This document shows positions 16,628 to 32,600 of a stretch of 64,000 nt of DNA, in pieces; within the stretch, counting starts at the first letter, position 1; every line of letters starts with the position of its first letter. The position numbers and the translations under genes were made by a program. Under the pieces are notes generated by a model. It was not told the origin of the DNA and made no database searches. It was given only the letters and a program-made list of their open reading frames with translations. The stretch comes from Psychrobacter fozii (GTDB taxonomy: Bacteria > Pseudomonadota > Gammaproteobacteria > Pseudomonadales > Moraxellaceae): contig NZ_QJSU01000002.1 in assembly GCF_003217155.1 (NCBI RefSeq), forward strand, positions 248,001 to 312,000, read 5' to 3'.

Positions 16628-19492
16628 ATGTCTAGTGTCCCTCCATCAATAGCCTCTACCCCAAACCATCATTATGAAGACAACTCGATCATTGAAGGTC
16701 TAGTGCTGCCACTTGCGGGCGATTGCTTTCATTGCGGCGATCCTGTACCGCAGCCGCCATTCTATGCCGAGATACTGGGTCAATCACGTGAGATGTGCTG
16801 TATGGGCTGTCAGTTGGCAGCGCAGAGTATCGTAGAGGCAGGGCTTGAGCAATATTATCTGGATCGCTCGGAGATTAGTCGTACGGCAAGCTTGCCTACT
16901 CAAATGACTCGCCTTGAGGCTTATGATCATGACGAGATAAAGCAGCAGTTTGTGTATGCGCAGGATGGTATGTCGGTGGCAGAGTTGTCTGTCAATAATC
17001 TGCGTTGTGCGGCGTGTACGTGGTTGATTGAATCACGTCTCGACGAGTTGGATGGTATCAGTAAATGTCAGGTGAATTTGACCAACCAACGTATGCGGGT
17101 GATTTGGAACGAAGACAAGCTACCGATTAGCCGTATTCTAGCCGTTATCAATGAAATCGGCTATGAAGCCAAGCCTTATCGTCAAGACACGCATGAGGCC
17201 ATGCTGGCACGCCATACTAATCAAATGCTGCTGCGCCTTGGTATTGCTGCATTGGGTTCGATGCAAGCAATGATGTATGCCGTGGCGCTATATTTTGGTG
17301 AATATAGTGACATGCTGATATTGCAGCGTGATTTTCTACGTTGGGTCTCATTGTTCGTCAGTACGCCTGTATTCTTTTATGCTGGACTACCGTTTTTTAC
17401 ATCAGCATGGTCAGCGGTTCGCGCCCGCCAAGTTAATATGGATGTGCCTGTCAGTATTGCGCTAATTGTGACTTTTTTCGCCAGTCTATATGCCACGATT
17501 ACTGGGCAAGGGGAAACGTATTACGATTCGGTCAGCATGTTTATTTTCTTCTTATTAGCAGGCCGTTACATCGAGCATAATGCTCGCCTAAAAGCTGCGA
17601 CTATGGCCAATGATTTGGTGGTGGTTGAACCGGTGTTGGTGCAAAAAGTTGCGGAAGATAAAGAAGCTGCTGAGCGTATTTTGCAACAGATTTCGCAGAA
17701 TATGCTCAATGAAACGGCTAATAAGTCAGAAGATGGCACTGCTGATATTTCACGTGATAATGTGAATGTGGACCCTATAAGCAACCAAAAACTATCAAGT
17801 GCTATGCCTAATTTTATGAAGAGCATAGATGATAATGTTCATGAGTTAACCGCACGTATTGCCCAAGACTGGCAGCAATCGCGTAATCAGCGATTCTCTT
17901 TATCAAAACAAGAATCAAAACCAGAGCCAACAACAGGCGTCAGCGTCGAAGATAAAAATAGTACACAAGACAAAAAAATGGTGACCGCTCATAGCTTGCA
18001 AGTGGGTGACATCATCATGGTAGAAGCGGGATCTGAAATTATCAGTGATGGTATTTTGCTCAGTCCAACCGCCACAGTCTCGCAAAGCCTGCTGACGGGT
18101 GAGGGCGACTTGATTATCAAGACCCAAGGCGACTATATCGTTGGTGGTGCGCAAAATGACAGTCAGCCATTTGAGATGCTGGTCACCGCATTGCCAGAAG
18201 ATAGCCAGATAGGCTTGATAGATAGACTCATGAACCGCGCCATGAGTGAAAAGCCAAAACTGGCACAGCAGGCAGATAAGCTGGCACGTTGGTTTGTGGC
18301 GCGCATTCTAGTATTGTCCGTCTTGGTGTTTATTGGTTGGTATATCGTTGATCCAAGCCAAGCTGTTTGGGCTACCGTCGCAGTATTAGTTGCAACTTGT
18401 CCTTGTGCCTTGTCTTTGGCGACACCTATTGCCCTGACGGTATCGACGAATCGGTTGGCGAGCTATGGATTTTTAACGACGCGTGGGCATACGCTGCAAA
18501 CGCTCGCTGAGATTACTCATGTGGCCTTTGATAAAACAGGTACGCTGACTTATGGTAAGCCGAATTTACTCAATATCGAATTAACTGATCCTCTGAGTCA
18601 AAAAGAGACAGAAGGTTTAGTATTAGCTGACCAAAAAGATAAAGTCTTAGCCATCGCCGCTGCTCTAGAAGTGGGTAGTCGGCACCCAATTGCCCATGCA
18701 TTGCTTACTGCGGCTTATCAATTGCACCTGCCAGCCACGCAAGCACTACAGCATTATCCAGCGGGTGGGGTAGAAGCAATGATCGATGGTGTGTTATATC
18801 GAATTGGTCATGTGGATTTTGCCTTAGACAACACCAATGATGCTAGTGCAAATAATGATATAACCATTGATTTAGTAGCGCAACGAGCCAGCTCAGCGGT
18901 AGTCTTGTCTCGTCAAAATAACGATTCAGACGATTGGCAGGCGCTGGCGTGTTTTTACTTTAATGACAAGGTGCGTGACAGTGCCAAGTCGATGCTTGAT
19001 ACACTGAAAGCACTAGGCATTGAGTCTGTGATGCTAACTGGTGATCCAAGTCCGCAAGCGTTAGTAATGGCGAAAGGTTTGGGTATGGAGTCTGCCTATA
19101 ATGGTTTATCACCAACCGATAAGGTCAACCATATTCAAAAATTGCAGTCTGAAGGTGCAGTAGTGCTGATGGTTGGTGACGGTATCAATGATGCACCCGT
19201 ACTGGCAGCGGCAGATGTCTCGACCTCGATTGCTGGCGCGGCAGATTTGGCGCAAGTATCGAGCGATAGTATTATCTTAAATGGTCAAATAGAAGCTATT
19301 ACTGCGGCCAAACGTATCGCTGATAAAACAGAGCGTATCATCAAACAAAACTTTCGCTGGGCACTGGTATACAACAGTATTGTGTTGATACCAGCAGCGT
19401 TAGGCTACGTGCCACCATGGCTCGCTGCTATTGGTATGTCACTCAGCTCATTGTTTGTGGTATTGAATGCTTTGCGCTTGAAGCGTGCTTAG
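16628..19492 (+). CDS. ccoI: CcoI/FixI-type copper P-type ATPase
   Basis: A heavy-metal P1B ATPase (about 954 residues) of the kind that supplies copper to cbb3 oxidase assembly. An N-terminal Cys-rich metal domain (CFHCGDPVP and CCMGCQ) precedes an HMA domain with CAACTW (about 126). Further motifs are the membrane CPC (about 590), DKTGT (about 634), the HP motif SRHPIAHALL (about 684) and GDGINDAP (about 851), ending GMSLSSLFVVLNALRL. A hydrophilic insert of about 115 residues (about 338-455) lies before the actuator domain, and the actuator motif reads TGEG instead of TGES. The ATG at 16628 has GGAAG upstream and replaces the TTG at 16577. No cbb3 oxidase genes are in the window, so the copper/cbb3 role is a family inference. 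Confidence 0.83.
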   Translation: MSSVPPSIASTPNHHYEDNSIIEGLVLPLAGDCFHCGDPVPQPPFYAEILGQSREMCCMGCQLAAQSIVEAGLEQYYLDRSEISRTASLPTQMTRLEAYDHDEIKQQFVYAQDGMSVAELSVNNLRCAACTWLIESRLDELDGISKCQVNLTNQRMRVIWNEDKLPISRILAVINEIGYEAKPYRQDTHEAMLARHTNQMLLRLGIAALGSMQAMMYAVALYFGEYSDMLILQRDFLRWVSLFVSTPVFFYAGLPFFTSAWSAVRARQVNMDVPVSIALIVTFFASLYATITGQGETYYDSVSMFIFFLLAGRYIEHNARLKAATMANDLVVVEPVLVQKVAEDKEAAERILQQISQNMLNETANKSEDGTADISRDNVNVDPISNQKLSSAMPNFMKSIDDNVHELTARIAQDWQQSRNQRFSLSKQESKPEPTTGVSVEDKNSTQDKKMVTAHSLQVGDIIMVEAGSEIISDGILLSPTATVSQSLLTGEGDLIIKTQGDYIVGGAQNDSQPFEMLVTALPEDSQIGLIDRLMNRAMSEKPKLAQQADKLARWFVARILVLSVLVFIGWYIVDPSQAVWATVAVLVATCPCALSLATPIALTVSTNRLASYGFLTTRGHTLQTLAEITHVAFDKTGTLTYGKPNLLNIELTDPLSQKETEGLVLADQKDKVLAIAAALEVGSRHPIAHALLTAAYQLHLPATQALQHYPAGGVEAMIDGVLYRIGHVDFALDNTNDASANNDITIDLVAQRASSAVVLSRQNNDSDDWQALACFYFNDKVRDSAKSMLDTLKALGIESVMLTGDPSPQALVMAKGLGMESAYNGLSPTDKVNHIQKLQSEGAVVLMVGDGINDAPVLAAADVSTSIAGAADLAQVSSDSIILNGQIEAITAAKRIADKTERIIKQNFRWALVYNSIVLIPAALGYVPPWLAAIGMSLSSLFVVLNALRLKRA

Positions 19493-19519
19493 GGGTGACT
19501 CTAAGACACGAGGTAGTGT

Positions 19520-19659
19520 GCAGTGGCATGGGTGACTGCACGATAGACGCTATGATGGCTATGATGGCTTTGATGACTGTTTGCTACGACAGTCGCTTCA
19601 TCGATGGTCTCGGTATCTGTCACGGGCGCAAATGCAGCAGGGGTGTCTAACGTGAGCGT
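19520..19659 (-). pseudogene. vgrG fragment (relic A)
   Basis: About 140 bases near-identical to vgrG at about 29550-29689, including a run of 45 identical bases starting GACAGTCGCTTCATCG. It corresponds to the N-terminal third of VgrG (residues about 308-355) on the minus strand. It has a 9-base duplication (ATGATGGCT twice) relative to vgrG and no open frame beyond it. It ends a few bases after the ATPase gene, marking the border of the accessory region. Confidence 0.85.
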
Positions 19660-19786
19660 TTGTTTTTTAACCTGAATTCGGGATAAGCCACATTGTAAAT
19701 CATTGATACATATTTATAATATGGCGACCTGTCCTTGCTAATTCATGTTTGCTTGCCTTGCGTTTAGTATTGCTTATTAATTGCTT

Positions 19787-20488
19787 CTATTTTAATTCTG
19801 GGTTATATAAAGATATATCAGTTCTGTCATCATCTTCGCAAAAGATCATCTCTACCATAACGTATTTAGATTGTTTCTGCTGCACAACACATTCTGTATA
19901 TTTTATAATCTTTGGACTATCTAGCAATTCTTGGAAGAACTGAGGAGGGTTATCTGCACCACTTACATCTATCATCTTATAGATAATATTTTTCTGAAAA
20001 TTACTAAAAGCTTCAGTAGGTTTTTGAGGTACTGCTACGTAAAATAGTTTGCCAAAATATTGATCTTTTTCTTTCTCAAAAGAATAATGAATAAAAGTAT
20101 TATCGGAATATTGAACTAAACCATAAAAGCTATTAAGGTCTTCATTTATATTTTCCCCCTCAATTTTTTCAACTTGCATATCATCATAGAATGAGGTCTT
20201 TAACTTCTCTGTATTTAATTGTGGCAAAGAAAAGCGTGTCTGGGATTGCTTTGCCGGCGTACTTGTTACTCTTGGCTCCCAATCAACGAAAAAATTATTT
20301 TCTATTTCGTCTATATCTCCATCTATTGCTGGATACTGTTGATTGGTTGATACATTATCTGTATTTGAAACAGTGTTGTTAGTGCTTTTATTTTGCTCTA
20401 TGCCTTTGATTTCAGCTGATTTGTTATCACAAGCTAGTAATGAGGGACTAAATAATAAGGTAATAATAAAAAATCTTAATAATTTCAT
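19787..20488 (-). CDS. Putative immunity lipoprotein (copy 1)
   Basis: A 233-residue lipoprotein with signal sequence and lipobox (SPSLLAC, Cys at 20). After an Asn/Ser/Thr-rich linker the C-terminal part closely matches the product of 25821-26513, e.g. VSGADNPPQFFQELLDSPK versus ISGADNPDIFFQELINSPK, then VVQQKQSKYVMVE. AGGAT lies before the ATG. It follows a broken metzincin gene whose frame runs 41 bases into it, just as copy 2 follows an intact metzincin. The repeated order suggests a periplasmic immunity protein to a metzincin effector. It has outlived its effector, as an orphan immunity gene could. Confidence 0.6.
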   Translation of the reverse strand: MKLLRFFIITLLFSPSLLACDNKSAEIKGIEQNKSTNNTVSNTDNVSTNQQYPAIDGDIDEIENNFFVDWEPRVTSTPAKQSQTRFSLPQLNTEKLKTSFYDDMQVEKIEGENINEDLNSFYGLVQYSDNTFIHYSFEKEKDQYFGKLFYVAVPQKPTEAFSNFQKNIIYKMIDVSGADNPPQFFQELLDSPKIIKYTECVVQQKQSKYVMVEMIFCEDDDRTDISLYNPELK

Positions 20489-20891
20489 AATCTATCCTGT
20501 AAATTCTCGTATCTTTTTGCATTTTATACCATTGATATCTAGTGAATGACATACGCTTTTTGCTTTTTGCTTTTTGCTTTTTGCTATTTGTTCTTTTACT
20601 AATGGCTTGCCAAGTGTAATCCATCACTTTATCACTAAAGCTTTGATAGAACTTATATTGGTTGGCAGAGTGGGGCTCAAATATATGAGGCAATGATAAA
20701 CTATGGCCAATTTCATGAACTAAAGTATCAAGATTCTCCCAAGCGTTTTTAAAAACGACAGCAACATTACCCGTTGCCAATTGTGTTAAACGTTCAGCCA
20801 GATGCTGACCACCCAATGCCGTTTGGGTGAGAGTCGGGGTGTGGTGTTGATAGTTATGCTGTCCAGATTGCGCATGGGTTTGTGGCTGGGT
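20448..20891 (-). pseudogene. Chimeric relic: vgrG fragment fused to metzincin C-terminus
   Basis: Bases 20771-20891 match vgrG at about 28683-28803 (TALGGQHLAERLTQLATG). At a short sequence shared by both genes (near CCGTTGCCAATTG) the match switches to the C-terminal domain of the metzincin gene at 26523-27902 (NQYKFYQSFSDKVMDY). An open frame of 122 codons from 20816 spans the join. It keeps a zinc motif, HEIGHSLSLPH, but the glycine normal in HExxHxxGxxH is serine, the N-terminal effector domain is gone, a 7-base tandem repeat interrupts the C-terminus, and the original stop is lost. Most likely non-functional. Confidence 0.8.
20555..20582. repeat. Heptanucleotide tandem repeat (GCTTTTT x4)
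   Basis: Four perfect copies of GCTTTTT, inside the metzincin relic near its C-terminus. As seven is not a multiple of three, changes in copy number shift the frame. Confidence 0.9.
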
Positions 20892-20904
20892 TGTAAGGAA
20901 ATAA

Positions 20905-20991
20905 TAAAAAAACCACCCGAAAGTGGCTTAAGTAAAATAATAAAAGACTAACCTTACTCACCATCAAATTGCCAAATCACCTCACCCCAGT
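20905..20991 (-). terminator. Terminator and conserved tail (copy 1)
   Basis: A short hairpin (CCAC / GTGG with loop TTTCGG, followed by a T-run on the minus strand) preceded by a relic open frame ending NNNWGEVIWQFDGE-stop. The same arrangement occurs at 25711-25790. It lies after the last gene of the 21130-25462 cassette and probably ends its transcript. Confidence 0.6.
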
Positions 20992-21129
20992 TGTTGTTTA
21001 GTTAGTCTGGCATGAGCTGGCTTTTCTTAAGATAGGCTCAGTTATATTTTTTGGTAGGTGTAAACCAGTAGGCTGATTTGGCTAGGCATTATTTTATAAA
21101 ATAGTCTTAGGTTTGTATTCAACTTCAGA

Positions 21130-22017
21130 CTATTTCATATACTCCCAAAAATCAGGGGTCTCATAACTTTCATCGATAGTATAGCCCTGTTCTTGCAAAT
21201 CAAGCTCTTTCTTTAATCTACTAGTTAAAGACAGTTTAATCATGTCCTCATAGGCTTGTTTTAAGGCGGCTCCTTCAAGTTTAGAGCCGCCTTCTATAAG
21301 ATTGACACCAGTATATCCAGCAGTGTTAAACGCAAACCTAAGCATATACTGCTCTTGTCCGATCTCGTTAATTTCTGTCCTATCGACAGTTATAATGACG
21401 ATGATACCATCAAGATATAAATTATAGTACAGGCTTTGATCTGGGTTGCTGTTAAATAAGCCAGACCACTCTTCATAGCTTAGAATATAACTAGGATCCG
21501 TGACTTCATTGAATTGCTTTATAGACCTAAGATTATCTTGTTTTGAGATACGAGATGCATAGGGAGCGTAATACTGTTGCCAACCTTGTTGGTTGATTTG
21601 AGTCAATAATTCTTTATAGGCTAAGTAAGCTTCCTTTGGTTCCACAAATTCTGCTTTGTTTAAGCTAGCATTAATACTTATACCTATAATACCTTTACTT
21701 ACGTTATTGTTTTTAGAGTTTCCCAATACGGAAAATGCGTTATCCAAAGTTAAAGTATGATTCTCATGAGCAATATTTACTGATCCTAGATCAGGAGGCG
21801 TCCAATCCAAATCAAAAAAGCTCATTCCAGCAGGTTGGATGTCTACATCGCCACCAGTATAAGTGTTAAAGTCTTTGATTCCTTGCTGATCAAAGTGAAG
21901 AGTGACATTTTGTGGTGTGGACATAGATTTATTCTCTTGTTGTGTGTATTGAAATAAGATAAAAACAATCGCCACGATAACCGCTAATATAACTGCTTTA
22001 AAGGATAGTAATCGCAT
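21130..22017 (-). CDS. Exported protein, putative immunity (paralogue of 22090-23151)
   Basis: A 295-residue protein with an N-terminal membrane helix (about 5-24) and a periplasmic remainder. Not recognised from a named family. It shares a layout with its neighbour at 22090: a strand region, then a segment with AY...L...QQGW, then EEW and YY.LY.DG..V.I.V.R (here YYNLYLDGIIVIITVDRTEI), so the two are probably old paralogues. It is last in a four-gene minus-strand cassette led by a metzincin. Periplasmic location and position suggest immunity or accessory function; this is inference. Confidence 0.55.
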   Translation of the reverse strand: MRLLSFKAVILAVIVAIVFILFQYTQQENKSMSTPQNVTLHFDQQGIKDFNTYTGGDVDIQPAGMSFFDLDWTPPDLGSVNIAHENHTLTLDNAFSVLGNSKNNNVSKGIIGISINASLNKAEFVEPKEAYLAYKELLTQINQQGWQQYYAPYASRISKQDNLRSIKQFNEVTDPSYILSYEEWSGLFNSNPDQSLYYNLYLDGIIVIITVDRTEINEIGQEQYMLRFAFNTAGYTGVNLIEGGSKLEGAALKQAYEDMIKLSLTSRLKKELDLQEQGYTIDESYETPDFWEYMK

Positions 22018-22089
22018 TATTTTCCCCCTTCATTACTGCTAGGAAATATCCAAGAGGTTTCTCAACCATTGCCCTAAGTTGCAATAATT

Positions 22090-23151
22090 CTAAGCAGAGT
22101 GGGGTTGATCTGCTAGGCAACGTCCACGAGCCTGACTGGACATTTCAGGTTTAGTCTCCGGTTGGTTTTCGTAGTAGGGTGTCATATCTTCACCAGCCTC
22201 TTGACGCTTAATGAACTCTTCGTAAGCTATCTTATAGGGGTCAATCGATACAAACTTTCTGGTATCAATCCCTGTTTCTTTAAGTACAAGGGGTAGAGTA
22301 TAGTCAGGTTGATCTTGCTGAATCTTCAATCCCATTTTGATGGCTTTAGTCTCGAAAAAAAGTCTAGCTTCAGGTAGTCCACCATAAAGTTTACTATATT
22401 CTTTAGTCAAAGATTCATCGTAGTTATTAGGGATTATTTGTTTTATTAATTCTGACTCATCGAAAACATCTAAGCTAATTAGGTAATGACGGCTGCCTGT
22501 TTCAGGGTCACTTTGCCTATTTATTCTAATATTCATAAATACATCTTTACCATGGCGCAGTTGCCATACTTGTAAATCACTGAGCTGCATCCATTGCTCA
22601 AAGTTTAAAGGATAGGTGTAATCAAGGTTAAAGTCACTTCCACCTTCTTTTGTGGCAAATGTAAAGCTGTCTTTAGGGCTTAAACGAGGTTCACTTAAGC
22701 TTTTAGCATAAGTCCAGCCTTTATCTTGTAGTTCTTTAAAGAAAGACATTATTTTCTGATAAGCATCTTCGTCTGATATGCCGCTTACTTTTTGGTTGAA
22801 TAAAAAACCAAGATTGATTTTCGAGAGTTTGTAATTTGCTTTTTTGTTATCGTCGTAAGCTAAAATCGACATAACACCGTCAATACTTAACTCACCATTA
22901 GGGTATTTAATAATGACAGTAGGCTCTTTATATCTTGGAAAGTCATAACCTTGAAAAGTAACGCTCATAGGCTGAGCGTCAGCTTCTTGAAAAACTTTAT
23001 ACTCAGGGTTAGCATCGTATAACTCTTGAGCAGTCATATTTAAAGCAATTTCTAGAGGTTTGTCAGGCAGTTCACTGTGTTTTGCCTGACAGGCTACCGT
23101 TAAAAAGATAAAACTGAAGCAAACTAAAACACTTAAAATCTGCTTGGGCAT
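22090..23151 (-). CDS. Lipoprotein, putative immunity
   Basis: A 353-residue lipoprotein with signal sequence and lipobox (IFLTVAC, Cys at 21). Not recognised from a named family. Central segments resemble the product of 21130-22017 (EDAYQKIMSFFKELQDKGW; LNFEQWMQL). The C-terminal 40 residues are hydrophilic and Pro/Glu rich. It lies 34 bases after the 23186 gene and 72 before 21130, in the same transcript direction. Periplasmic lipoproteins next to T6SS effectors are often immunity proteins, which is the basis of the suggestion. Confidence 0.55.
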   Translation of the reverse strand: MPKQILSVLVCFSFIFLTVACQAKHSELPDKPLEIALNMTAQELYDANPEYKVFQEADAQPMSVTFQGYDFPRYKEPTVIIKYPNGELSIDGVMSILAYDDNKKANYKLSKINLGFLFNQKVSGISDEDAYQKIMSFFKELQDKGWTYAKSLSEPRLSPKDSFTFATKEGGSDFNLDYTYPLNFEQWMQLSDLQVWQLRHGKDVFMNIRINRQSDPETGSRHYLISLDVFDESELIKQIIPNNYDESLTKEYSKLYGGLPEARLFFETKAIKMGLKIQQDQPDYTLPLVLKETGIDTRKFVSIDPYKIAYEEFIKRQEAGEDMTPYYENQPETKPEMSSQARGRCLADQPHSA

Positions 23152-23185
23152 AATACTAACCCTGTTTTTGAGTCAAAAAATACAA

Positions 23186-23893
23186 CTAATGAATTGTTAG
23201 GTTACTCAACATATCAAACCTACAGTGCTCAAGTTCATGAGTAGTATTTCGCCCCCACAGCTCAAAGAGCAAACCATTAAAGCGAACATAAGAAAAATAG
23301 ATATCAGTATCTTTTAACTTAATATCGTTTTTAACTTTTTCACTGTAGTCACTATACAACTCATTTAATATCTCTTCAGATTTTTCGCGGTCATCTAAAA
23401 CTAGGTTGAGGGTCTCGAGCATGCCAAATCTATCGAGTGCTATGAGCTCATGACCATACTGTTTTCTAGCATGCACACTGTTAAAATGGTAAGAAATACT
23501 ATTAAGTTTATTATTACCACCTATATCTAGTAAATGTAAATCTCCATTTATTTTTCCCAGTTCAATACGCCGATCAAAATGATTTCTATGAGTTAGCTGA
23601 GTATATAAAGGCGATTTCTCAAACCGCTCTAAAAATAAGTCTTTATCCATCACGTCGATAAATTTGTCTCTTTGCACACCAGTGTTAATAACTTTTATTT
23701 TTTCTTTAGCATAGCGACTACGTTTATATTCGACGCAGGGGGCTAGGTTTGTAAAATCAGGACTATCTAAATAAATACTTCTATAAGCGTCAAATTTTGA
23801 GTCAAATACTGGTTCTATCGGTTGCGCTCTGATTTGAACAGATAGGCTTAATAAAATAATAGTACTGAATAATTGAAAGTGTCTTATATACAT
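23186..23893 (-). CDS. Secreted protein, putative immunity to the adjacent metzincin
   Basis: A 235-residue protein with a cleavable signal peptide (cleavage after about residue 23, IRAQP). No named family recognised. Charged and mostly soluble, with two cysteines in the mature part. It starts 33 bases after the metzincin gene stop, the position occupied by a lipoprotein behind the other metzincin. Its C-terminus has no clear match to that lipoprotein. Likely to act in the periplasm as the direct partner of the 23927 metzincin; inferred from position. Confidence 0.55.
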   Translation of the reverse strand: MYIRHFQLFSTIILLSLSVQIRAQPIEPVFDSKFDAYRSIYLDSPDFTNLAPCVEYKRSRYAKEKIKVINTGVQRDKFIDVMDKDLFLERFEKSPLYTQLTHRNHFDRRIELGKINGDLHLLDIGGNNKLNSISYHFNSVHARKQYGHELIALDRFGMLETLNLVLDDREKSEEILNELYSDYSEKVKNDIKLKDTDIYFSYVRFNGLLFELWGRNTTHELEHCRFDMLSNLTIH

Positions 23894-23926
23894 AACAAAG
23901 CCTACTTTTTGGTTTAATTACTGATA

Positions 23927-25462
23927 TCAATACACGCTTCTATCATTACGTATAATATCCCATTGCCACTTAAATGAAGCGAGATTATGCTCATAGAAAT
24001 CATTAAATTGAACGTCTTGATAAGTGCCTAAATTGTCGATTTTAGTATCATAATCCATTATATTATCAGTATACCCTTGGTAAAACTGATGTTTGGCTGA
24101 GCTAGTAGTCTCAAAAGTATGCGGTAAACCTAAGGTATGTCCTAGCTCATGGATAGCAGTTAGTGCATGAAGCTTGCTGCCGTCATATTTGTACATCACC
24201 CCTAAATTCCCTGCTTCATCTATGTAGCATGGCTCAGGGTTGCATGACTGGTTATGTATTTCCTTATAGTCCCAAGTTGCTATACCAGCGGCATCTGGGG
24301 TAACGTAGTTTGTAAAGACTAGGAAAGTTTTTTTGTGATTATCTGAATCAATATACAGTCCATCTATTGAATTATTGTTTGTCGTTTCTCTTAATATAGC
24401 TGCCATCAGCTTAGCTAAATCATCAGGAAAAGCATCCCCTTCGCTCTCCGTCAAATCTCTTATAGATGGTGATGGGTATTGTGCCAAAAACCCATTTATT
24501 AAGCTTAATGCCATATCCTTATTTATTGCAAAACTGGCCTTTTGTGATTTTTCATATTGTTGTTTTAAATCGGCAATATTTAAAAGCTTGATTTTTTCAA
24601 TTTTTGATGTGATACAAGCCTGTCGAAGTAATGTCTGTGCTAGATAGTCTTCAAGGTATTGAGGGACTGTAACGCTAGTATTACCAAGTACGGAAGAAAA
24701 CTTATAGGGCACTATTTCACATGTCTTTGGTATGTTTGGATATATCATAAGTAAACCAACGATACGCTCTGCGCCTCTCAAGCTTGCTTTAATTTGAATA
24801 GATCCTGGCAAGCCATCTGTAACATTCGATTCAATTTTGAAAGTAGTGCTTTCATCTCGATATCTATGAATGGTTTTAGATTGGAAGACGCTATTAGAAG
24901 AGTTTAAAACATCTGGAGACAGCCGACCTCCTTTTATCAGATCACCCAAACTTATAGAGTTAGGCGTTATGGTTATGCCAGGACTGGTTATAAACTCGAT
25001 TATAGTGCCATCATTGGTAAGTTCTGAACCATCGTCGCTATTTTCTTGATCTATTTGTAAGTGTAAGTCAATTGGAACACCTTTTAGAGTGGTTGAGTGA
25101 GTTGGTATTATCGATAACCATGCAGGGATATACGGCTCGCCATTCGTCGGCTTGATATTGGCAAGCTCTTTTACATCCGCTGTATCAGATGAGCTTAAGC
25201 GTGTGTATTCTTTAATTAATTCACGAACATCACCACGATATAATTGAGTTTCAGAATCCTTATTTTCTATAACTTTTAGATAATCATATACATATTCATC
25301 TCTCAACCAATCAAAGCCATACAAACCGTTATATTTTGTCAGCGTAGGCCTTCTGAAATGTATTAGAAAGTCTCTAAGGGTAGGTCCTGTTATTTTTACT
25401 ATTTGGTTATTGGTACCCGTTGTGAGCTTCTTAGTAGTACCTTTAGATTTATTTCCTACCAT
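23927..25462 (-). CDS. Metzincin-type metalloprotease, putative T6SS effector
   Basis: About 511 residues, no signal peptide. The C-terminus has the zinc motif HELGHTLGLPH (about 438-448) and a Met-turn NIMDY about 20 residues on, the pair that defines metzincins. The N-terminal 250 residues align with those of the 26523 metzincin (FLIHFRRP, YGFDWLRD, YIPAWLSIIP), a domain that probably serves T6SS loading. The in-frame TTG at 25477 is replaced by ATG 25462, giving MVGNKSKGTT like MSKKSNGTTG in the homologue. It heads a cassette of three exported proteins. Lack of a signal peptide with exported partners suits a T6SS effector acting in the periplasm; activity is untested. Confidence 0.72.
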   Translation of the reverse strand: MVGNKSKGTTKKLTTGTNNQIVKITGPTLRDFLIHFRRPTLTKYNGLYGFDWLRDEYVYDYLKVIENKDSETQLYRGDVRELIKEYTRLSSSDTADVKELANIKPTNGEPYIPAWLSIIPTHSTTLKGVPIDLHLQIDQENSDDGSELTNDGTIIEFITSPGITITPNSISLGDLIKGGRLSPDVLNSSNSVFQSKTIHRYRDESTTFKIESNVTDGLPGSIQIKASLRGAERIVGLLMIYPNIPKTCEIVPYKFSSVLGNTSVTVPQYLEDYLAQTLLRQACITSKIEKIKLLNIADLKQQYEKSQKASFAINKDMALSLINGFLAQYPSPSIRDLTESEGDAFPDDLAKLMAAILRETTNNNSIDGLYIDSDNHKKTFLVFTNYVTPDAAGIATWDYKEIHNQSCNPEPCYIDEAGNLGVMYKYDGSKLHALTAIHELGHTLGLPHTFETTSSAKHQFYQGYTDNIMDYDTKIDNLGTYQDVQFNDFYEHNLASFKWQWDIIRNDRSVY

Positions 25463-25710
25463 GGTTGTGTATCTCAATATCTAATTATTAAAAATAGTTC
25501 GTAAGTAAGTTACGACATTAACGGGGTGCTGCGAAGAGTATCTTTGTTCAAACTAAGTCAGATATGGCCTGTTGAATATTAGACCATTCAACCTTGTTAG
25601 ATATTGGTATCTGCCCCAAGTGAACTAGCCTTCGATAAAATAGCTGTGTTTTAGGTTTAGTTATGAATGTGATACAGGGGTAGGGGATGTCATTGTTACT
25701 TATGTATCAT
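25463..25710. other. Intergenic before the second metzincin cassette
   Basis: Region between the metzincin start and the conserved tail/terminator at 25711. It includes a small inverted repeat around 25571-25592 (TTGAAT / ATTCAA). No clear promoter seen. Confidence 0.3.
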
Positions 25711-25790
25711 TATAAAAAACCACCCGAAAGTGGTTTGAAGTAAAAAATAGTCTTATCTGTCATCGAACGGCCAAATGAACTGCCCCAGTT
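25711..25790 (-). terminator. Terminator and conserved tail (copy 2)
   Basis: Hairpin AACCAC / GTGGTT with loop TTTCGG and a T-run on the minus strand, preceded by a relic tail ending GQFIWPFDDR-stop in one frame. Homologous to 20905-20991. It lies after the copy 2 lipoprotein and probably ends the vgrG-metzincin-lipoprotein transcript. Confidence 0.62.
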
Positions 25791-25820
25791 AATGGTTGGA
25801 TAGTTTGATGTTGCCTTATT

Positions 25821-26513
25821 CTAAGATTTAGATTTATATAAAGACAAATCTGTTCTATTATCAAACTCACATGATGTCAAATCCACCATCGCATATTTCG
25901 ATTGTTTTTGTTGCACAATGCAGTCCCTATATTTAGTAATCTTAGGGCTGTTTATGAGTTCTTGAAAAAATATATCAGGGTTATCTGCCCCGCTTATATC
26001 TAATATTTTGTATATGATATCTTCATCGAGTCTATTAAACGGGTCATGTGGTTGATATTTCCCAGCTAAGGTAAACCTCTTCACAAAATATTTATTATTA
26101 ACTTTATCCAATGAGTAATCTAAGATAGTGCCATCGTCATATTGAATGACAACAAAAAAGCCATATGCCGTTTCGTCAAATTGTTTACTATTTATTTGGT
26201 TTAAATTATATTCTTTGTGGAATAATTTTTTAGTTTTTTTTACATTTTCGTCAGGCAGAAAAAATGGTTCATGAACTTGCTTTGCGGGGGTTTTAGTGAT
26301 GAAAGGAGCTGGGTCTGTTGTATTGAAACCCTGTTGTATTTGGGGTTCAGTCTTAGATGTTGATATGCTCTCAGCGCTATTCTGTTCATCCAGTATTACA
26401 GTAGGTTCGATCACTTTACCTGAATCTAGAGTGAGTGAGTCAGAAGAGGTGGCGTCACAGGCAGCAAATAATGCAGTAATTACTAGAGTAAGTGCAAGCT
26501 TTATTGTTTTCAT
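25821..26513 (-). CDS. Putative immunity lipoprotein (copy 2)
   Basis: A 230-residue lipoprotein with signal sequence and lipobox (ALFAAC, Cys at 19). The C-terminal 65 residues match copy 1 at 19787-20488 closely (DIIYKILDISGADNP; CIVQQKQSKYAMV; NRTDLSLY), while the N-terminal linkers differ. It starts nine bases after the stop of the intact metzincin gene, so the pair is co-transcribed behind vgrG. AGAGG lies before the ATG. An outer-membrane or periplasmic lipoprotein that protects against its own metzincin is the best guess. Confidence 0.65.
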   Translation of the reverse strand: MKTIKLALTLVITALFAACDATSSDSLTLDSGKVIEPTVILDEQNSAESISTSKTEPQIQQGFNTTDPAPFITKTPAKQVHEPFFLPDENVKKTKKLFHKEYNLNQINSKQFDETAYGFFVVIQYDDGTILDYSLDKVNNKYFVKRFTLAGKYQPHDPFNRLDEDIIYKILDISGADNPDIFFQELINSPKITKYRDCIVQQKQSKYAMVDLTSCEFDNRTDLSLYKSKS

Positions 26514-26522
26514 ACAGACCTC

Positions 26523-27902
26523 TTATAGTTTGTATACACTGGGATCTTTTTGCATCAGGTACCATTGATACCTCGTAAATGAAATAAGTTTATTTGGATT
26601 GCTAGGTGCAATACCTGTTTGCCATTTATAGTCCATTACTTTATCACTAAACCCTTGATAGAATTTATATTGGTTAATAAGATTAGGCTCAAATACGTGC
26701 GGTACTCCCATACTATGGGCTACTTCATGAACTAAGGTCTCGTAATCGTCTAAACCTGATTTTAAAACGAGCGCAACATTACCTGTTGCAAATTGTCCAG
26801 TAGAAAAATCAGCAGGTGCTTTACCGTACAAGTCTTTTACATCAAAATCTAATAGAAAAAGGTAAGTCTTTTTATGACCTTTTTGATTAATGGATAAAGC
26901 ATTACCATTTTGGTCTCTATGTTTTCCAAGTCCATATTTATCATACGCATTAATAATGCCGTCACTTACTGATTCTGGAGTATGGCTATTTGTCTTTGCA
27001 TGTTTTATATAAGACTTTATATGTGTGTCGGTATCAAATTTATTCAAATCGAATGGCTCTGTAGTTTTAATCTCTGCTCTTATAAGTGCTTGATTGAATG
27101 AATTGTACTTTAAATATGACTCTATAGATTCTAAAGATTTTTTATTTATACCTGTAGATGTCTTAACAGGTACTAGTACTAAATCAGCTTTGTACGTCTG
27201 ATCGTTTTTATGCACCATTAATTCTCCTACTAAGTCTTTATCGTTAGCAGAAATAGCATAAACAGCGATACTTTCATGTCTGCTAAGTGGTTTTTTGTTT
27301 CTCACTCCCTTAACCAGTACAGCTCTTTTAAGAACATAGTCTTTTCGGCTCTTACTGTTAGTCTTATCCACTACAGTCGTTTTATATCCTTGTTTGATAA
27401 ATTTTTTAATTGGAATGCTTGAAGGCGAGACAGTAAGTTTACTTGGATTTGAAGATACAAACTTTAATTCTGTATATTTACTGTTCTTGAGTTGAGATGT
27501 ATCTCCAATTAGTTGTTGAAGCTCAATATCTAGTTGTATTCCATCTTTGTGCATAGAGGAGCCACCTCTATAAACACTGCTGGTTGTATACGGGAAGATA
27601 GCCAACCATGCTGGTAAATAATTGTATTTATGTAATAGTGGTGAGTACATAGCATCTTTAAGGTAAATATCGTTAAAATTAGAAATATTACCTTTAAATA
27701 ATGCTTTGCGAGTACGCCTACCTGTTGTGGGTTCTGTTACCTCTTCCATAGGGTATCTATCAGTATCTCGTGGATAATCAAATCCATAACGTCCAGCCAT
27801 ATCCTTTGGCTGTCTAAAATGAACCGTAAACTCACGACGGCTTATTCTAACTACTGCGAACGGATCAGATGGGCCAGTAGTGCCATTAGATTTTTTACTC
27901 AT
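26523..27902 (-). CDS. Metzincin-type metalloprotease, putative VgrG-linked T6SS effector
   Basis: A 459-residue protein without signal peptide. The zinc motif HEVAHSMGVPH is at 392-402 and the Met-turn KVMDY at about 421-425. The N-terminal half (HFRQPKDM, YGFDYPRD, YLPAWLAIFP) is shared with the 23927 metzincin. It starts ten bases after vgrG and is followed nine bases later by a lipoprotein, a tight vgrG-effector-immunity order. A metallopeptidase effector (Tpe1) is reported for the Acinetobacter baylyi T6SS, which makes this role plausible; whether this is its homologue was not checked. Substrate unknown. Confidence 0.75.
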   Translation of the reverse strand: MSKKSNGTTGPSDPFAVVRISRREFTVHFRQPKDMAGRYGFDYPRDTDRYPMEEVTEPTTGRRTRKALFKGNISNFNDIYLKDAMYSPLLHKYNYLPAWLAIFPYTTSSVYRGGSSMHKDGIQLDIELQQLIGDTSQLKNSKYTELKFVSSNPSKLTVSPSSIPIKKFIKQGYKTTVVDKTNSKSRKDYVLKRAVLVKGVRNKKPLSRHESIAVYAISANDKDLVGELMVHKNDQTYKADLVLVPVKTSTGINKKSLESIESYLKYNSFNQALIRAEIKTTEPFDLNKFDTDTHIKSYIKHAKTNSHTPESVSDGIINAYDKYGLGKHRDQNGNALSINQKGHKKTYLFLLDFDVKDLYGKAPADFSTGQFATGNVALVLKSGLDDYETLVHEVAHSMGVPHVFEPNLINQYKFYQGFSDKVMDYKWQTGIAPSNPNKLISFTRYQWYLMQKDPSVYKL

Positions 27903-27912
27903 AGTTTCTACC

Positions 27913-30612
27913 CTATTGCTCTTTGTTTTGCCAATCCAGCTCTAGATGAACTTCAATCTCATCTTCGCTATTAGAATGGAAGCGTTCTGACCGTCCGTCT
28001 TCATCGGTCACACCTTTAAACTCTTCGCCTGTTTGTTTGTTCGTCGCTGTATAAGGTGTGTTGGCATAGGGCTCATCATCGTCATCCAAAAACTGATATG
28101 CCAAACTATACACTCCATCCATCAGCGTCTTTTTCTCAGGAATGATGCTCGGCAACCCCGCCAAACTCAGCCCATCCATCCCGCCGCTATCACGACTATG
28201 CTTACCAGCCTTCTCCGTAAACTGCATCGCCGCAATCGTAATATCCGCGCCATCTAGCGTGATACTCGCACCGCCCGCCGTCAGCGTAATCTTATTCGTT
28301 GCCACTATCTCAACTTCTTTAGTTGAGGATGACATATTCACATCTTGCTTCGCTGTCGCTTCAAGCTTCCCTGTATGTGCAGACAGCATAATATTGTCCT
28401 TGCCATTGGTCATACTAAACTGACCATCAGCGACTATCGTCAAAGACTCACTACTGACCTGATGATGACCATCACCACTGCTCACCATCATATCTTGCTG
28501 AGTGGTCGTTATCATCTCACCCATCGATCGCTGAATCAGCGTATCGTCACTGACATAGCTCGTATCAGCAGCGCTATCTATCAGCGTATAGGGCGCTTGT
28601 TGATGGGTTTTGGTGTGCTGATCCTCTGCGATACTTTCTAACTGGGTCTTAATCACTTTGTGGTCATTGATATGACGTCCCAGTCCCGTTGCCAGTTGTG
28701 TTAAGCGTTCAGCCAGATGCTGACCACCCAATGCCGTTTGAGTCAGAGTCGGGGTGTACTGTTGATAGTTATGCTGTCCAGATTGCGCGTGGGTTTGCGG
28801 CTGGGTGGAGAATACTAAGGCTTCGCCCGACTTGATATTGATTTGAGCACTGGTATTGGCATTGATGCCTTGACGTTTACTACTGGCGCCATCACTTTCA
28901 GCATTGATAATTCCCATCTTGAGCGTGGCAGCCACTTGACCATCATTGACGTTCAGCTGTGAGTACGCTTGCTCCGTTCTATGATCGGTAATCCACTCTG
29001 ATAAACCGTTGCCCGTGTTGCGATAGCCGCTCTCGACTGCTTGTTCATTGTCCGTAGCAAATAGGCTAGGGCGCGTGCTAGACAATAAGCTACCAGTATT
29101 GATTAAGTGCTCACCATCACCGATAGACTGCATCAGGGTCTGGTCGTCAGTTCTATGAGTGAAGTGACTGCCATAGTTGGCTCCTGCTTGGGCTTCTAAT
29201 CGATTGATAGGTTGGGCAGGACTGTCAAGCAGATAGCTTTTGGTCGGGGTCATATGATTGCGACTGTCGGTATCGCTTTGAGCATCTGTGATACCGGTCA
29301 TTGGCGGTAGTACGCGTTTGCTATATAAACTACCGACCCACGGCGTGTCTGCGGTAATCAGCCGCAGCTGGGTCAAGTGAATGCCTGATTCTAGTGTTGA
29401 GGCATGGCGTTCATGATGGCGACGACTGATGGTCAGCCCTGTCACATGTGCCAGACTGTTGCGCGCCAAGTGAACGATATGGGTGGCGCGATAGTGCTGA
29501 TTGAGATGGTTGTGATCGACCAGTATAAAGGTATCGGCAACATTCAAATCAGTGGCATGAGCAAGTGCATGATAGACGCTGTGATGGCTTTGATAACTGT
29601 TGGCTATGACAGTCGCTTCATCGATGGTCTCGGTATCTGTCACGGGCGCAAACGCAGCAGGGGTGTCTAGCGTGAGCGATTGGCTACTTGCTTGATTGTC
29701 TTCTTGAGCGCTATTTTCATCAGTACTGGTGTTTATGGCAATATCAGCAGACTGAGTAGGGTGTGCGACACTCGCACTGTTAAAGCGTTGCATCGTCACG
29801 GAGCTTGGCTGAGTGATGATTTGCTCACTCAGTGCCAATACTGGCGCATGTACGCGGTCGTGTAATACTTGCTGATAGCGTATCGCACCAATGTTTGTGC
29901 TGATGCCCTCGCTATCGCTTGGAGAGGCTGTCGTGATAATGAGCTTTGGCGGTGTATGTTCGTCCGTTTGCTCATGACGCAGATAGGCTGTCAGTCCTTG
30001 ACGTGCAAGCCGCTCACAAATATGCGTCCAGTCACTGATTTGCCATTGGGTCATGCGTGCAGGTGTCCAGCTAGCGTCTTCACCACTGCTGCTATCATCG
30101 ACGGTCTCTATCTCTAGAGTAGCAGTGCGTTCTGCCACCATGGACTGTACTGATAAGTCAGTGTCTATATGACAGCGTTGGTGTTGATGCAGGCGATAAG
30201 TAATGGGCTGTGCGAGCAGACGATAATAGCCGTAGCTGCCATCGTGATCCAGTTGATGTACGGCAGTCAGGTATAAGTGGCGGTAGTGTAGACCGCTCGG
30301 GGTATCGAAGCTCAAGGTAAGCGGAGTGCCGATTAAGTAGGTGAGCGATGTAAAAGGCGGGTGGTGACGCTCATGAATATAGACATGAAGCAGGTAAGTG
30401 TCGATACCGTGCTGCTGATATTGCTCATTCCCATTGGGGTTTAGCTGGGCAACGATATCATCTTCAGAAGATGCTTGAATCAGCTTATTCTGCCACGCTT
30501 TATGGTCATTGATGTCTTGACGAGCACTCGCATAGGGAGCTTGTGTACTGCCTTCACTGGCATAGAGCCTGTCAGGATGCATGGGGAGTACAGTATTGGT
30601 CAAGCGTAACAT
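27913..30612 (-). CDS. vgrG: VgrG spike protein with C-terminal transthyretin-like domain
   Basis: T6SS spike protein of 899 residues. The N-terminal gp27-like part (about 60-400) is followed by a shortened gp5/OB region in which AGANYGSHFTHR and TGSLLSSTRPSLFA match the usual pattern but the typical GRVKVQFxW segment is not visible. Then comes the helix region of Acinetobacter-like VgrGs (GGQHLAERLTQLATGLGRH), a DUF2345-type beta-helix (about 680-820, with many alternating repeats such as NKITLTAGGASITLDGADI) and a C-terminal transthyretin-like extension (about 835-899, YQFLDDDDEPYANTPYT), a type of domain that recruits effectors in other systems. AGGGA precedes the ATG. The metzincin follows ten bases later. 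Confidence 0.87.
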   Translation of the reverse strand: MLRLTNTVLPMHPDRLYASEGSTQAPYASARQDINDHKAWQNKLIQASSEDDIVAQLNPNGNEQYQQHGIDTYLLHVYIHERHHPPFTSLTYLIGTPLTLSFDTPSGLHYRHLYLTAVHQLDHDGSYGYYRLLAQPITYRLHQHQRCHIDTDLSVQSMVAERTATLEIETVDDSSSGEDASWTPARMTQWQISDWTHICERLARQGLTAYLRHEQTDEHTPPKLIITTASPSDSEGISTNIGAIRYQQVLHDRVHAPVLALSEQIITQPSSVTMQRFNSASVAHPTQSADIAINTSTDENSAQEDNQASSQSLTLDTPAAFAPVTDTETIDEATVIANSYQSHHSVYHALAHATDLNVADTFILVDHNHLNQHYRATHIVHLARNSLAHVTGLTISRRHHERHASTLESGIHLTQLRLITADTPWVGSLYSKRVLPPMTGITDAQSDTDSRNHMTPTKSYLLDSPAQPINRLEAQAGANYGSHFTHRTDDQTLMQSIGDGEHLINTGSLLSSTRPSLFATDNEQAVESGYRNTGNGLSEWITDHRTEQAYSQLNVNDGQVAATLKMGIINAESDGASSKRQGINANTSAQINIKSGEALVFSTQPQTHAQSGQHNYQQYTPTLTQTALGGQHLAERLTQLATGLGRHINDHKVIKTQLESIAEDQHTKTHQQAPYTLIDSAADTSYVSDDTLIQRSMGEMITTTQQDMMVSSGDGHHQVSSESLTIVADGQFSMTNGKDNIMLSAHTGKLEATAKQDVNMSSSTKEVEIVATNKITLTAGGASITLDGADITIAAMQFTEKAGKHSRDSGGMDGLSLAGLPSIIPEKKTLMDGVYSLAYQFLDDDDEPYANTPYTATNKQTGEEFKGVTDEDGRSERFHSNSEDEIEVHLELDWQNKEQ

Positions 30613-30709
30613 AGTTATGTCCCTATTCTTTGCGCAATGGCATCATGTTTTTTGAGCGCTGGCATCAAAACATAAGTGTTTGTCTGCCATTGTCATGCAT
30701 ACAGCCGTG

Positions 30710-31534
30710 TTATTCGGCGAGGGTAAATTCGATACGGCGATTACGAGTACGCCCCTCTTCATTGTCATTACTGGCGATGGGGTCTGCGTCCCCTTTACCC
30801 GTAGTGCTGAGACGTGCTGCACTGATATTTCGACCGATGAGGTATTGCTTGACCGCTTCTGCACGCTTATTTGATAACACCAAGTTCGAACTAGGGTTGC
30901 CGACATTATCCGTATGTCCAGTGATGGTCACGGGCTTATCACCGACCCGCTGTAGTACGCCTGCCATATCGTCTAAAATGCCAAGCCCCATCGGGGTTAG
31001 TGTGGTGCTACCTGATTCAAACTCAACGATACGATTGCCTAATGTGTCGTCGAGGAGACGTTGTTCACCCTCTACGACAACCAGTTGATTGTCCAGTTGA
31101 TAGAGGTCGGTTAGACGGGTATGAATGCGATTTTGGATCGCTTGTTTTTGTTCAAGACTGCTTACTTTGCCATGTAAGCTAATGGTCGTACCATGGATGT
31201 CGATACGGCCTTGGCTAATATTGGATATGTCGCTATCGATAATGGCAGTGGCTATCTGTTGCCAATTGGTCGGTATGCTAATGTTCGAGCGCACTTCGAT
31301 TTCGTCTCTGACCGTTTTATTAGGATATTGTGCTTTTAGTTTTTCGAGCAATTGTTGCTTGTCTGAGCTGGTAGCGACCACACCTTTGATGACGACTGGT
31401 ACGTTGCGTGATAGACCATCATCTTGTGCTGCAAAGACAACCGCACTGAGAGGAAGTATCATCGCGGATACTAATAGTAGTTTCTTGGAGTGACCAGCAA
31501 GCTTAGATGGTAATGTTTTGGAGAGGACTTTCAT
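30710..31534 (-). CDS. OmpA-like periplasmic protein of the T6SS locus
   Basis: A 274-residue exported protein. The N-terminal signal region (about 1-37) ends VVFAAQ; BON-like modules follow (about 45-150), then a C-terminal OmpA peptidoglycan-binding domain (about 165-274) with TITGHTDNVG and NLVLSNKRAEAVKQYL. It lies between tagF and vgrG, as OmpA-family genes do in Acinetobacter T6SS clusters, and may tether the membrane complex to the cell wall. Gap to tagF 85 bases, so it probably shares the tssM-tagF transcript. Confidence 0.82.
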   Translation of the reverse strand: MKVLSKTLPSKLAGHSKKLLLVSAMILPLSAVVFAAQDDGLSRNVPVVIKGVVATSSDKQQLLEKLKAQYPNKTVRDEIEVRSNISIPTNWQQIATAIIDSDISNISQGRIDIHGTTISLHGKVSSLEQKQAIQNRIHTRLTDLYQLDNQLVVVEGEQRLLDDTLGNRIVEFESGSTTLTPMGLGILDDMAGVLQRVGDKPVTITGHTDNVGNPSSNLVLSNKRAEAVKQYLIGRNISAARLSTTGKGDADPIASNDNEEGRTRNRRIEFTLAE

Positions 31535-31619
31535 TGAAGTGCCTTTTAATCTTTATATTATTGAGCAGTTATTAAATACAGAGGCCTGATATACACGGTC
31601 ATCAGTTAATCATGAATCA

Positions 31620-32600
31620 TCATTGTGCCAAAAATGTTTTTTTAAACAATTGCCTAGTATCATACAGGTAGAGACTGTCTTGTAACAAGACTTTATTGAA
31701 GCGGGTCAGCCCGATATCTTCTTCAATATATCCTTGTGTCCAGTCACTATCAGCGATGACAACCCAGCCTTCAGGGTAGCTGTCCTCACTCTCCGATATC
31801 TGACTGAGTATATGTCCGTCAGGTTTCGTAAAGCTCAGTAGTAGACGATAGCAATTAGAGGCACGGTAGAGATAGGTGTTCAGATAGAGCTGATGTGGTT
31901 GATAAAACCCACTGATTAAATCATGCCAAAAAGTAGCCATATGTATCGAGGCAGCTCTATCGGAAGTGAGTGACCAACAGATGGCTTTGTTCAGACCATG
32001 AAAGCCTTTCGTGAATGTCGGTAAAAATAATAATCCAGTCGCGATAATTTGCTGTATCAATTGCGACTTATCGATGTTCATCAATATGGCGATATCGTGT
32101 AGAGTCGTGGTATTGATAAAATCGTAATAGTGCGTACTGGCATTATTGTCAATCGTGAGCTGGCTATGACCGAGATATTCCATCAAGTCAGTGCTGTCTG
32201 TCTTAGACTTGGCTACGCTTATAATTTCGTAAGTTTCATTCCAAATGCTAGCAGACTTAATGGGCAAATAATTCATCCAGCTTTTAGGTTTGTCGATATG
32301 TAGGACACCAAAACCGATCAGTGGATAGTTTCTATCGCTACTGTCATGACTGGGAATCAGGACGCCAGTGATAATTTCATTGGTTCTGGTATCCACATGA
32401 CTAAAGTTTAAAAAAGCCGTTTTATTGGTCGTCGTCCTGTCTACTAATCTGTCACTAAATAGTGTTTCCGAGCTTACTAGGGCCTTACTGACCCATTCGT
32501 CAATCGCGTTGGTCTCTGAGATATGAGCACGTGCCCGCACAAAGTCTCCGCGTGCAGGCAGCTTGCCAAAATATACTAAAGGTAAAAGCTCAGGAGTCAT
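31620..32600 (-). CDS. tagF: T6SS-associated protein TagF
   Basis: A 326-residue protein with the TagF N-terminal signature (YFGKLPARGDFVRAR) and the RNYPLIGFG segment near residue 90. In other systems TagF is a post-translational repressor or modulator of T6SS firing. No signal peptide. Its ATG overlaps the last bases of tssM by four (32597-32600), so the two are translationally coupled. The C-terminal 150 residues are more variable. Confidence 0.86.
   Translation of the reverse strand: MTPELLPLVYFGKLPARGDFVRARAHISETNAIDEWVSKALVSSETLFSDRLVDRTTTNKTAFLNFSHVDTRTNEIITGVLIPSHDSSDRNYPLIGFGVLHIDKPKSWMNYLPIKSASIWNETYEIISVAKSKTDSTDLMEYLGHSQLTIDNNASTHYYDFINTTTLHDIAILMNIDKSQLIQQIIATGLLFLPTFTKGFHGLNKAICWSLTSDRAASIHMATFWHDLISGFYQPHQLYLNTYLYRASNCYRLLLSFTKPDGHILSQISESEDSYPEGWVVIADSDWTQGYIEEDIGLTRFNKVLLQDSLYLYDTRQLFKKTFLAQ

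Follow-up and report, generated by a model that had tools for sequence, protein, structure and literature searches.

In the literature compared here, the metallopeptidase effectors of the type VI secretion system (T6SS) that have experimental support are of the VgrG2b/M91 gluzincin type. The C-terminal metallopeptidase of VgrG2b, paired with PA0261, and Tpe1, paired with Tpi1, are described as gluzincin-type enzymes with periplasm-exposed immunity proteins that can be periplasmic, lipoproteins or membrane-anchored (PMC6899460). We analyzed a 64,000-nucleotide stretch of the Psychrobacter fozii genome (the window: NCBI RefSeq assembly GCF_003217155.1, contig NZ_QJSU01000002.1, positions 248,001 to 312,000 of the forward strand) in which a T6SS-linked set of cassettes occupies positions 30612 to 19521 of the minus strand and encodes two zinc proteases with a common N-terminal domain, protease A and protease B, each with an exported partner protein directly downstream. 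The best explanation of their sequences and arrangement, to which we give a probability of about 0.8, is that they belong to a new T6SS effector-immunity family whose metzincin-type proteases would act in the periplasm of target cells. Like VgrG2b and Tpe1 as described, each cassette would combine a T6SS zinc metallopeptidase acting in the periplasm with a downstream gene for an envelope-exposed immunity protein; unlike VgrG2b, a thermolysin-like gluzincin, MA(E), with Glu as third zinc ligand (PMC6899460), the proteases here have an extended motif that offers a His instead, and a Met-turn. The partners were compared with PA0261 and Tpi1 by published description.

Several other described systems share part of this organization (below, loci are numbered L, genomes G and contigs C). 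The VGN2 cluster of Acinetobacter guillouiae and A. bereziniae, reported in silico, contains vgrG, a DUF4123 gene and an M12-type metallopeptidase gene, as do two of our loci (L044 and L053); its M12 proteins possibly belong to the same family, the two having been compared by description only, but the available portion of the VGN2 report describes neither a partner nor an N-terminal domain (PMC6838775). A Reprolysin_4 candidate effector encoded in Salmonella SPI-6 has an M12B-type motif and is bicistronic with an exported, signal-peptide-bearing immunity candidate, but at 243 residues it would, judging from its description, have hardly any room for the N-terminal domain (PMC10469887). In Salmonella Dublin the PAAR-RHS-M91 effector pair SED_RS06335/SED_RS06340 affects competition; it too is described as a PAAR-linked metallopeptidase, with a membrane-bound immunity protein, but the carrier is RHS and the domain is of the M91 (VgrG2b) type with HEXXH (PMC8867033). 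A Listeria pair has the same order, a metzincin gene and then a lipoprotein gene, but is described as differing in its protease signal peptide, its phage-type regulation, its Gram-positive host and a lipoprotein that is cleaved and released (PMC8235301). The main text of the A. baumannii catalogue mentions neither zinc nor metallo- nor protease terms (PMC6833914), and the accessible open-access literature, including part of PMC11148199, yielded no characterized T6SS metzincin with this N-terminal domain. The small family has apparently not been characterized before.

The features on which the argument turns, in window coordinates, are these:

27913-30612, minus strand: vgrG, 899-residue spike protein that has a DUF2345 region and ends in a transthyretin-like extension (Pfam).
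26523-27902, minus strand: protease B, 459 residues, proposed T6SS metzincin effector (open reading frame and motifs).
25821-26513, minus strand: partner B, lipoprotein of 230 residues with lipobox FAAC and Asp at +2, proposed immunity protein (motif).
23927-25462 (ATG start), minus strand: protease A, 511 residues, proposed T6SS metzincin effector (open reading frame and motifs).
23186-23893, minus strand: partner A, 235 residues with a hydrophobic, signal-peptide-like N-terminus, proposed periplasmic immunity protein (motif).

Read along the minus strand, vgrG, protease B and partner B are followed by a hairpin, protease A, partner A and two exported genes of a third family; next come the repeated hairpin, a stretch of vgrG running into the tail of a protease, a third partner gene (partner C) and another piece of vgrG.

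Both protease frames are intact and, as a preliminary description of this DNA had noted, carry the zinc motif HExxHxxGxxH together with a Met-turn (HELGHTLGLPH...NIMDY in A, HEVAHSMGVPH...KVMDY in B); the frame of A would extend to 25477 if an upstream TTG start were used. Also borne out was a common N-terminal half with the signatures HFRxP, YGFDxxRD and PAWLxIxP, the two proteins being 28% identical along their length. Among 15 aligned homologues, the three His and the Glu of the zinc site HExxHxxxxxH are invariant, and the Met-turn reads M-D-Y in 14 and L-D-Y in one, with D-Y invariant. In A, the catalytic region alone draws matches from the Pfam M12, M43 and M10 models, all below cut-off, and B draws none; Reprolysin_5 touches 11 of the 15 members at expectation values (E) of up to 0.01, and one member passes Reprolysin_3 (25.1 against a cut-off of 22.4). 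Because the third His of the extended motif is invariant and no protease matches Pfam Peptidase_M91, we place the family outside the VgrG2b/M91 gluzincins. A family profile run against the PDB recovered pappalysin and matrixins, with a best E of 3.5e-4 and around the zinc site only; in PDB sequence searches A gave weak matrixin matches and B none. We assign the proteases to the metzincins provisionally, on motif and weak homology and not on fold. Signal peptides had been reported as lacking, and crude hydropathy (not SignalP) found no hydrophobic N-terminal stretch in A or B, nor in any of 13 proteases (10 full-length and 3 with the PAAR part left out). PHROGs held no match for A, B, partners A and B or the L046 protein described below, and tblastn returned no plasmid match for A or B and no phage match for A. 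Protease B is under purifying selection, the ratio of nonsynonymous to synonymous substitution rates (dN/dS) of B genes being 0.15-0.26 in 6 comparisons among four genomes; within B, dN in one comparison was 0.158 in the catalytic part versus 0.097 in the N-terminal domain.

The proteases are linked to T6SS genes. The start codon of B lies 10 nt past the vgrG stop (27902 versus 27913), the spacing given in the preliminary description, and this is the only intact vgrG in the 3.5-Mb genome, which also holds 2 vgrG fragments, all of them inside this stretch. In three other genomes of the genus vgrG directly precedes a B-type gene (as a fragment in one), and in a fourth an A-type gene; homologues of B stand at L048, L049, L050 and L039, and the relative of A at L010 lies directly behind a vgrG tail. 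Carriers number 5 of 105 genomes in the genus, 11 of 299 in the family and, counting the window's own genome, 3 of 369 in the class, and a second collection held one Moraxella lacunata locus and one Gilliamella locus. In the order sample 16 of 341 genomes matched, at full length only the window's genome and G113, and in the phylum sample 22 of 398, of which the 21 other than the window's own matched in the catalytic stretch only; the partial matches in both samples were not counted as members. Sixteen of the 21 loci that carry the N-terminal domain either lie no more than 2.5 kb from vgrG sequence or encode a protease fused to PAAR; contig ends cut two loci for this purpose (G067 C124, G216 C45). 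The PAAR part scores 27.2 bits at L037, 27.8 at L041, 27.1 at L093 and 26.2 at L040 against a cut-off of 27, and L045 was counted as PAAR-fused on a tblastn match, with no Pfam match. A direct VgrG-protease fusion at L047, considered from a VgrG beta-repeat-like start seen by eye, is unsupported by Pfam and tblastn and was not counted. Between vgrG and protease stands a DUF4123 gene at L053 (59.7 bits), L005 (63.9) and L044 (24.6, cut-off 25.8). A TssC match came from 10 of the 13 genomes that carry the family, the window's included. The homologues are thus found mostly beside T6SS genes and without recognizable signal peptides. Judged solely from the vgrG copy counts and the neighbors of the relatives, we read the adjacency of proteases and vgrG as more than chance.

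The preliminary description had each protease followed by genes for exported proteins. This stood for the genes directly downstream, those of partner A and partner B (the latter beginning 9 nt after protease B). The two genes beyond partner A, although also for exported proteins, form a separate, non-cognate family:

22090-23151, minus strand: lipoprotein of 353 residues, third exported family, possible orphan immunity gene (clusters only with 21130-22017).
21130-22017, minus strand: membrane-anchored or exported protein of 295 residues, third family (clusters with 22090-23151).

As members of a different family, both are ruled out as partners of A. Relatives of this third family lie, by inspection, near vgrG sequence at L048, L049 and L050.

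Among the homologues, a protein judged exported by motif, that is, by a lipobox or a hydrophobic N-terminus, is encoded behind 15 of the 17 intact proteases, on their strand; the 17 leave out broken or contig-cut genes, namely copy C (below), L004/L045, L005, L009, the first protease of L040, L043, L052, L053, L054 and L093. Clustering of 30 candidate exported proteins gave one family of 15 members (A-/PAAR-type) and one of 8 (B/C type), besides the window's extra pair, two Gilliamella proteins grouped together and three unclustered sequences. Similarity between the two large families is faint at most (profile E of 4e-4 within the 30 sequences). Partner A's family spans vgrG-linked and PAAR-fused loci; in the 8-member family all carry a lipobox and 7 of 8 have Asp at +2. 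In E. coli, Asp at +2 of a lipoprotein marks retention in the inner membrane. Neither Pfam nor NCBIfam offered a credible model for the partners, and a structure model of partner A, with a predicted local distance difference test (pLDDT) score of 66.6, gave a best Foldseek E of 0.12, a best VIA Z of 4.5, which is within the tool's stated noise range, and no clear PDB match, a result that speaks neither for nor against a TIMP-like or other known fold.

Partner genes also occur in tandem. At L093:29-2810, four partner-like exported genes (210-217 residues) lie upstream of a ClpV-like gene, so called from its likeness to the gene at L037, and of a PAAR-metzincin gene split by an IS30-type transposase, named by eye; the contig is filed as viral and resembles chromosome. 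Tandem partners stand behind a single protease or protease tail at L051:4974-6462, L038:1793-3542 and L054:2750-4183. The tandem genes at these four loci look like immunity arrays.

Proteases and partners match at the level of clades. Proteases of the B clade have partners of family 1, and those of the A and PAAR clades have partners of family 2. Both clades occur in the window's genome (G000) and in G178, where every gene keeps to its own partner type; species descent by itself therefore does not account for the match there. Protease and partner distances correlate with r 0.97 over 13 pairs (permutation p 5e-5), a set that excludes L044 and L047, as their partners could not be aligned to the rest; r is 0.47 (p 0.013) in A plus PAAR (8 pairs) and 0.99 (p 0.026) inside the B clade (5 pairs). 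The partner of B has a dN/dS of 0.31-0.40 (6 comparisons, four genomes). Linkage, exported partners and clade-level co-diversification together favor the effector-immunity reading that the repeated gene order had suggested to the preliminary description.

How the proteases might be loaded onto the secretion apparatus turns on three subdivisions of these genes:

27201-27842, minus strand: N-terminal domain of protease B, residues 21-234, undescribed family (alignment).
24734-25381, minus strand: N-terminal domain of protease A (alignment).
27913-28125, minus strand: transthyretin-like extension of VgrG (its final 70 residues or so), where the stand-alone protease is proposed to dock (profile).

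The N-terminal domain proved as little described as had been surmised, with no convincing match in Pfam, NCBIfam or PDB sequences; six single-member Pfam or NCBIfam matches, the best to GlmU at 1.5e-4 in 1 of 14 members, were taken as chance. A domain-only search of the 299 family genomes returned the same 11 genomes and 21 places also found with the whole protein. The metzincin part lies in the same or the next frame at 19 of these places and is undecidable at the other two (G067 C124, truncated, and G216 C94, at a contig end), and no other toxin domain joined to the N-terminal domain was recognized at any of the 21. The domain is kept behind PAAR at L037, L040, L041 and L093 and at the DUF4123 loci L044, L053 and L005. 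Its invariant F-D may resemble metzincin aspartate-switch prodomains. At L046:4161-10127, a 1988-residue protein begins with a ComEA-like helix-hairpin-helix and ends in an N-terminal-domain and metzincin module; its middle part has no match in Pfam, NCBIfam or PHROGs, and its genome has no TssC match and no obvious partner gene.

VgrG itself scores 75.3 bits for DUF2345 and 23.0 bits for T6SS_Vgr (cut-off 22.4) in Pfam and stays below the cut-offs of the NCBIfam VgrG models. Against the PDB, the profile of its extension matches 6fwv (a collagen adhesin; 3.6e-5), 6h56 (VgrG2b; 0.0024) and 6sjl/6sk0 (T6SS VgrG; 0.054). Eight VgrG extensions are alignable, and 7 of them adjoin a protease. The extension is found at 7 loci where vgrG sequence abuts a protease (the window, L048, L049, L010, L036, L039 and the first protease of L040), and the 3 VgrGs that precede DUF4123 genes are, by inspection, without it. 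From this pattern, a correlation over ten loci, we would expect loading to depend on the extension or the adaptor and not on the N-terminal domain, and the transthyretin-like tail is likely the better docking candidate for B.

Beyond the two intact cassettes, the preliminary description reported a broken third copy followed by a homologous lipoprotein, and this too was found, in the form of a vgrG-protease chimera followed by partner C:

20770-20891, minus strand: vgrG fragment, 122 bp, 93% identical in DNA to 28685-28806 (DNA comparison).
20607-20784, minus strand: protease C remnant, a catalytic tail 74% identical to that of B (joined to the vgrG fragment).
19787-20488, minus strand: partner C, lipoprotein of 233 residues with lipobox LLAC-D (motif; 40% identical to partner B).
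19521-19662, minus strand: second vgrG fragment, 93% identical over 105 nt and 85% over 142 nt (DNA comparison).

The chimeric vgrG-protease frame spans 20448-20816, and at its junction vgrG and protease B share about 15 bp of nearly identical sequence. The simplest reading of copy C would be an internal deletion in a former unit of vgrG, protease C and partner, with partner C remaining. Partner C is still an open frame behind the broken protease and is 91% identical to the L054 partner with a dN/dS of 0.27, a value that is no proof, since the protease of the G067 copy compared may be whole past the contig end. The 19521-19662 fragment comes from an earlier part of vgrG than 20770-20891 and yet lies downstream of partner C, so that the order is scrambled. 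Orphan catalytic tails with partners are also present at L037 and L040. Such tails, spare partners and vgrG scraps are the debris that would be expected where effector-immunity cassettes turn over.

A number of observations weigh against our proposal. The Gly of HExxHxxGxxH is kept in 12 of 15 homologues and replaced by Ser in 3, and the model of protease A (mean pLDDT 39, from an 8-row alignment) is too poor for a fold search. At three of the 21 domain loci (G067 C36, G216 C52 and G216 C65) no T6SS marker turned up within 6 kb or before the contig ended, and at 3 of the 16 linked loci (G089, G150 and G178 C4 632) the adjoining vgrG sequence is a mere fragment, reduced to C-terminal pieces of 34 residues at G150, at a contig end, and 63 at G178 C4 632. 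TssC was not found in G150, in G190 (86% complete) or in G537, the genome of L046 being one of those without a match. Two of the 17 intact proteases, those of L042 and L046, are without a partner. The overall r of 0.97 comes largely from the two-clade split, and inside the A clade alone it is 0.05 (p 0.44, 5 pairs). Finally, adjacency and export would also suit a partner that is a chaperone, an activator or a substrate.

The last of these possibilities, a partner that helps or activates the protease in the periplasm or serves as its substrate, would match the gene order and lipoprotein nature described for the Listeria metzincin and its TIMP-like lipoprotein (PMC8235301). However, a partner C frame that stays open behind a broken protease fits protection better than help, as do the spare partner copies that pile up without proteases, and we consider a helper role improbable. 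The target might also not be bacterial. Bacterial metzincins are commonly secreted against host proteins, and the L046 relative, partnerless in a genome without TssC match, would suit a protease directed at eukaryotic cells or the environment, for nutrient acquisition or predator defense; but an exported partner beside nearly every copy, and the partner arrays, would be hard to explain without self-intoxication, which makes such a role very unlikely. There is scarcely any likelihood that the whole set is decayed mobile debris near vgrG with no present function. Debris is present, in the form of copy C and the second vgrG fragment, and there are several broken genes among the relatives (L004/L045, L005, the first protease of L040, L052 and L093), but A and B are full length and the low dN/dS of the B genes extends across four genomes.

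The preliminary description further suggested that the N-terminal domain is a T6SS delivery (marker) domain, which would be recognized by VgrG, an adaptor or PAAR. Its position at the N-terminus, its presence throughout the family and the several stand-alone members directly behind vgrG speak for this idea. The domain is nonetheless kept behind covalent PAAR fusions, where docking would be unneeded, and at L046, whose genome yielded no TssC match; it stands with a metzincin part at nearly all of its places and with no other recognized toxin domain; and loading tracks the VgrG tail, with the extension and no adaptor at 7 loci and the adaptor and no extension at 3. We therefore disfavor a delivery function, which seems unlikely. 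A more tentative thought, which we hold at somewhat less than even odds, is that the domain of about 215 residues and the metzincin form a self-contained polymorphic toxin, in which the domain possibly serves latency or substrate recognition, carried by at least three T6SS routes and, at L046, by a giant protein outside any T6SS detected, and mostly accompanied by a fast-diversifying immunity family.

In the scenario that we envision, both proteases are antibacterial cargo effectors of the T6SS, each with its immunity protein encoded directly downstream in the form of the exported partner. Protease B would ride on the co-encoded VgrG, with the transthyretin-like tail as the likely docking site; lacking a signal peptide, the effector would be kept from the producer's own envelope until the spike brings it into the periplasm of a neighbor, where the zinc-dependent metzincin would cut an envelope protein. 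The partner would bind the protease and so shield the producer and its kin. Partners of the B/C type, as Asp+2 lipoproteins, would probably be held in the inner membrane facing the periplasm, and those of the A type would be soluble or lipidated periplasmic proteins. The toxin module, comprising N-terminal and catalytic domains, would be swapped as a unit between delivery devices: a VgrG with a transthyretin-like tail, a VgrG with a DUF4123 adaptor, or a PAAR fusion. Recombination would leave behind catalytic-tail remnants, spare partner genes and vgrG scraps, copy C being one such case.

The surroundings of the cassettes include two hairpins:

25717-25736, minus strand: terminator-like hairpin closing the vgrG-B-partner unit (terminator scan).
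20910-20929, minus strand: terminator-like hairpin closing the A unit (near-identical copy of 25717-25736).

The elements around them (25714-25749 and 20907-20942) are 83% identical over 36 nt and end successive cassettes; they may provide homology for cassette shuffling. Over 19400-28000 we counted 11 terminator-like sites against 5.0 expected, and an uninformative promoter scan gave 28 sites against 31.4 expected. The G+C content is 35-37% over 20001-28000 versus 45-50% over 28001-36000, which holds vgrG and T6SS genes. The window also encodes TssM, TagF, an OmpA-domain protein, TssK and TssL, and a TssC gene lies elsewhere on its contig. Amid the T6SS genes, 38823-39872 encodes a D-Ala-D-Ala carboxypeptidase-type protein (Pfam Peptidase_M15_4, 40.9 bits).

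With its two or more families of natural partners, a metzincin family of this kind, separate from the gluzincins, would enlarge the repertoire of envelope proteases that bacteria use against one another and offer protease-inhibitor pairs already matched by nature. The family also has one toxin module served by several loading mechanisms, so that docking determinants are separable from toxin determinants. If the N-terminal domain and metzincin do form a polymorphic toxin module, the specificity of protease inhibition could be derived from these natural pairs.

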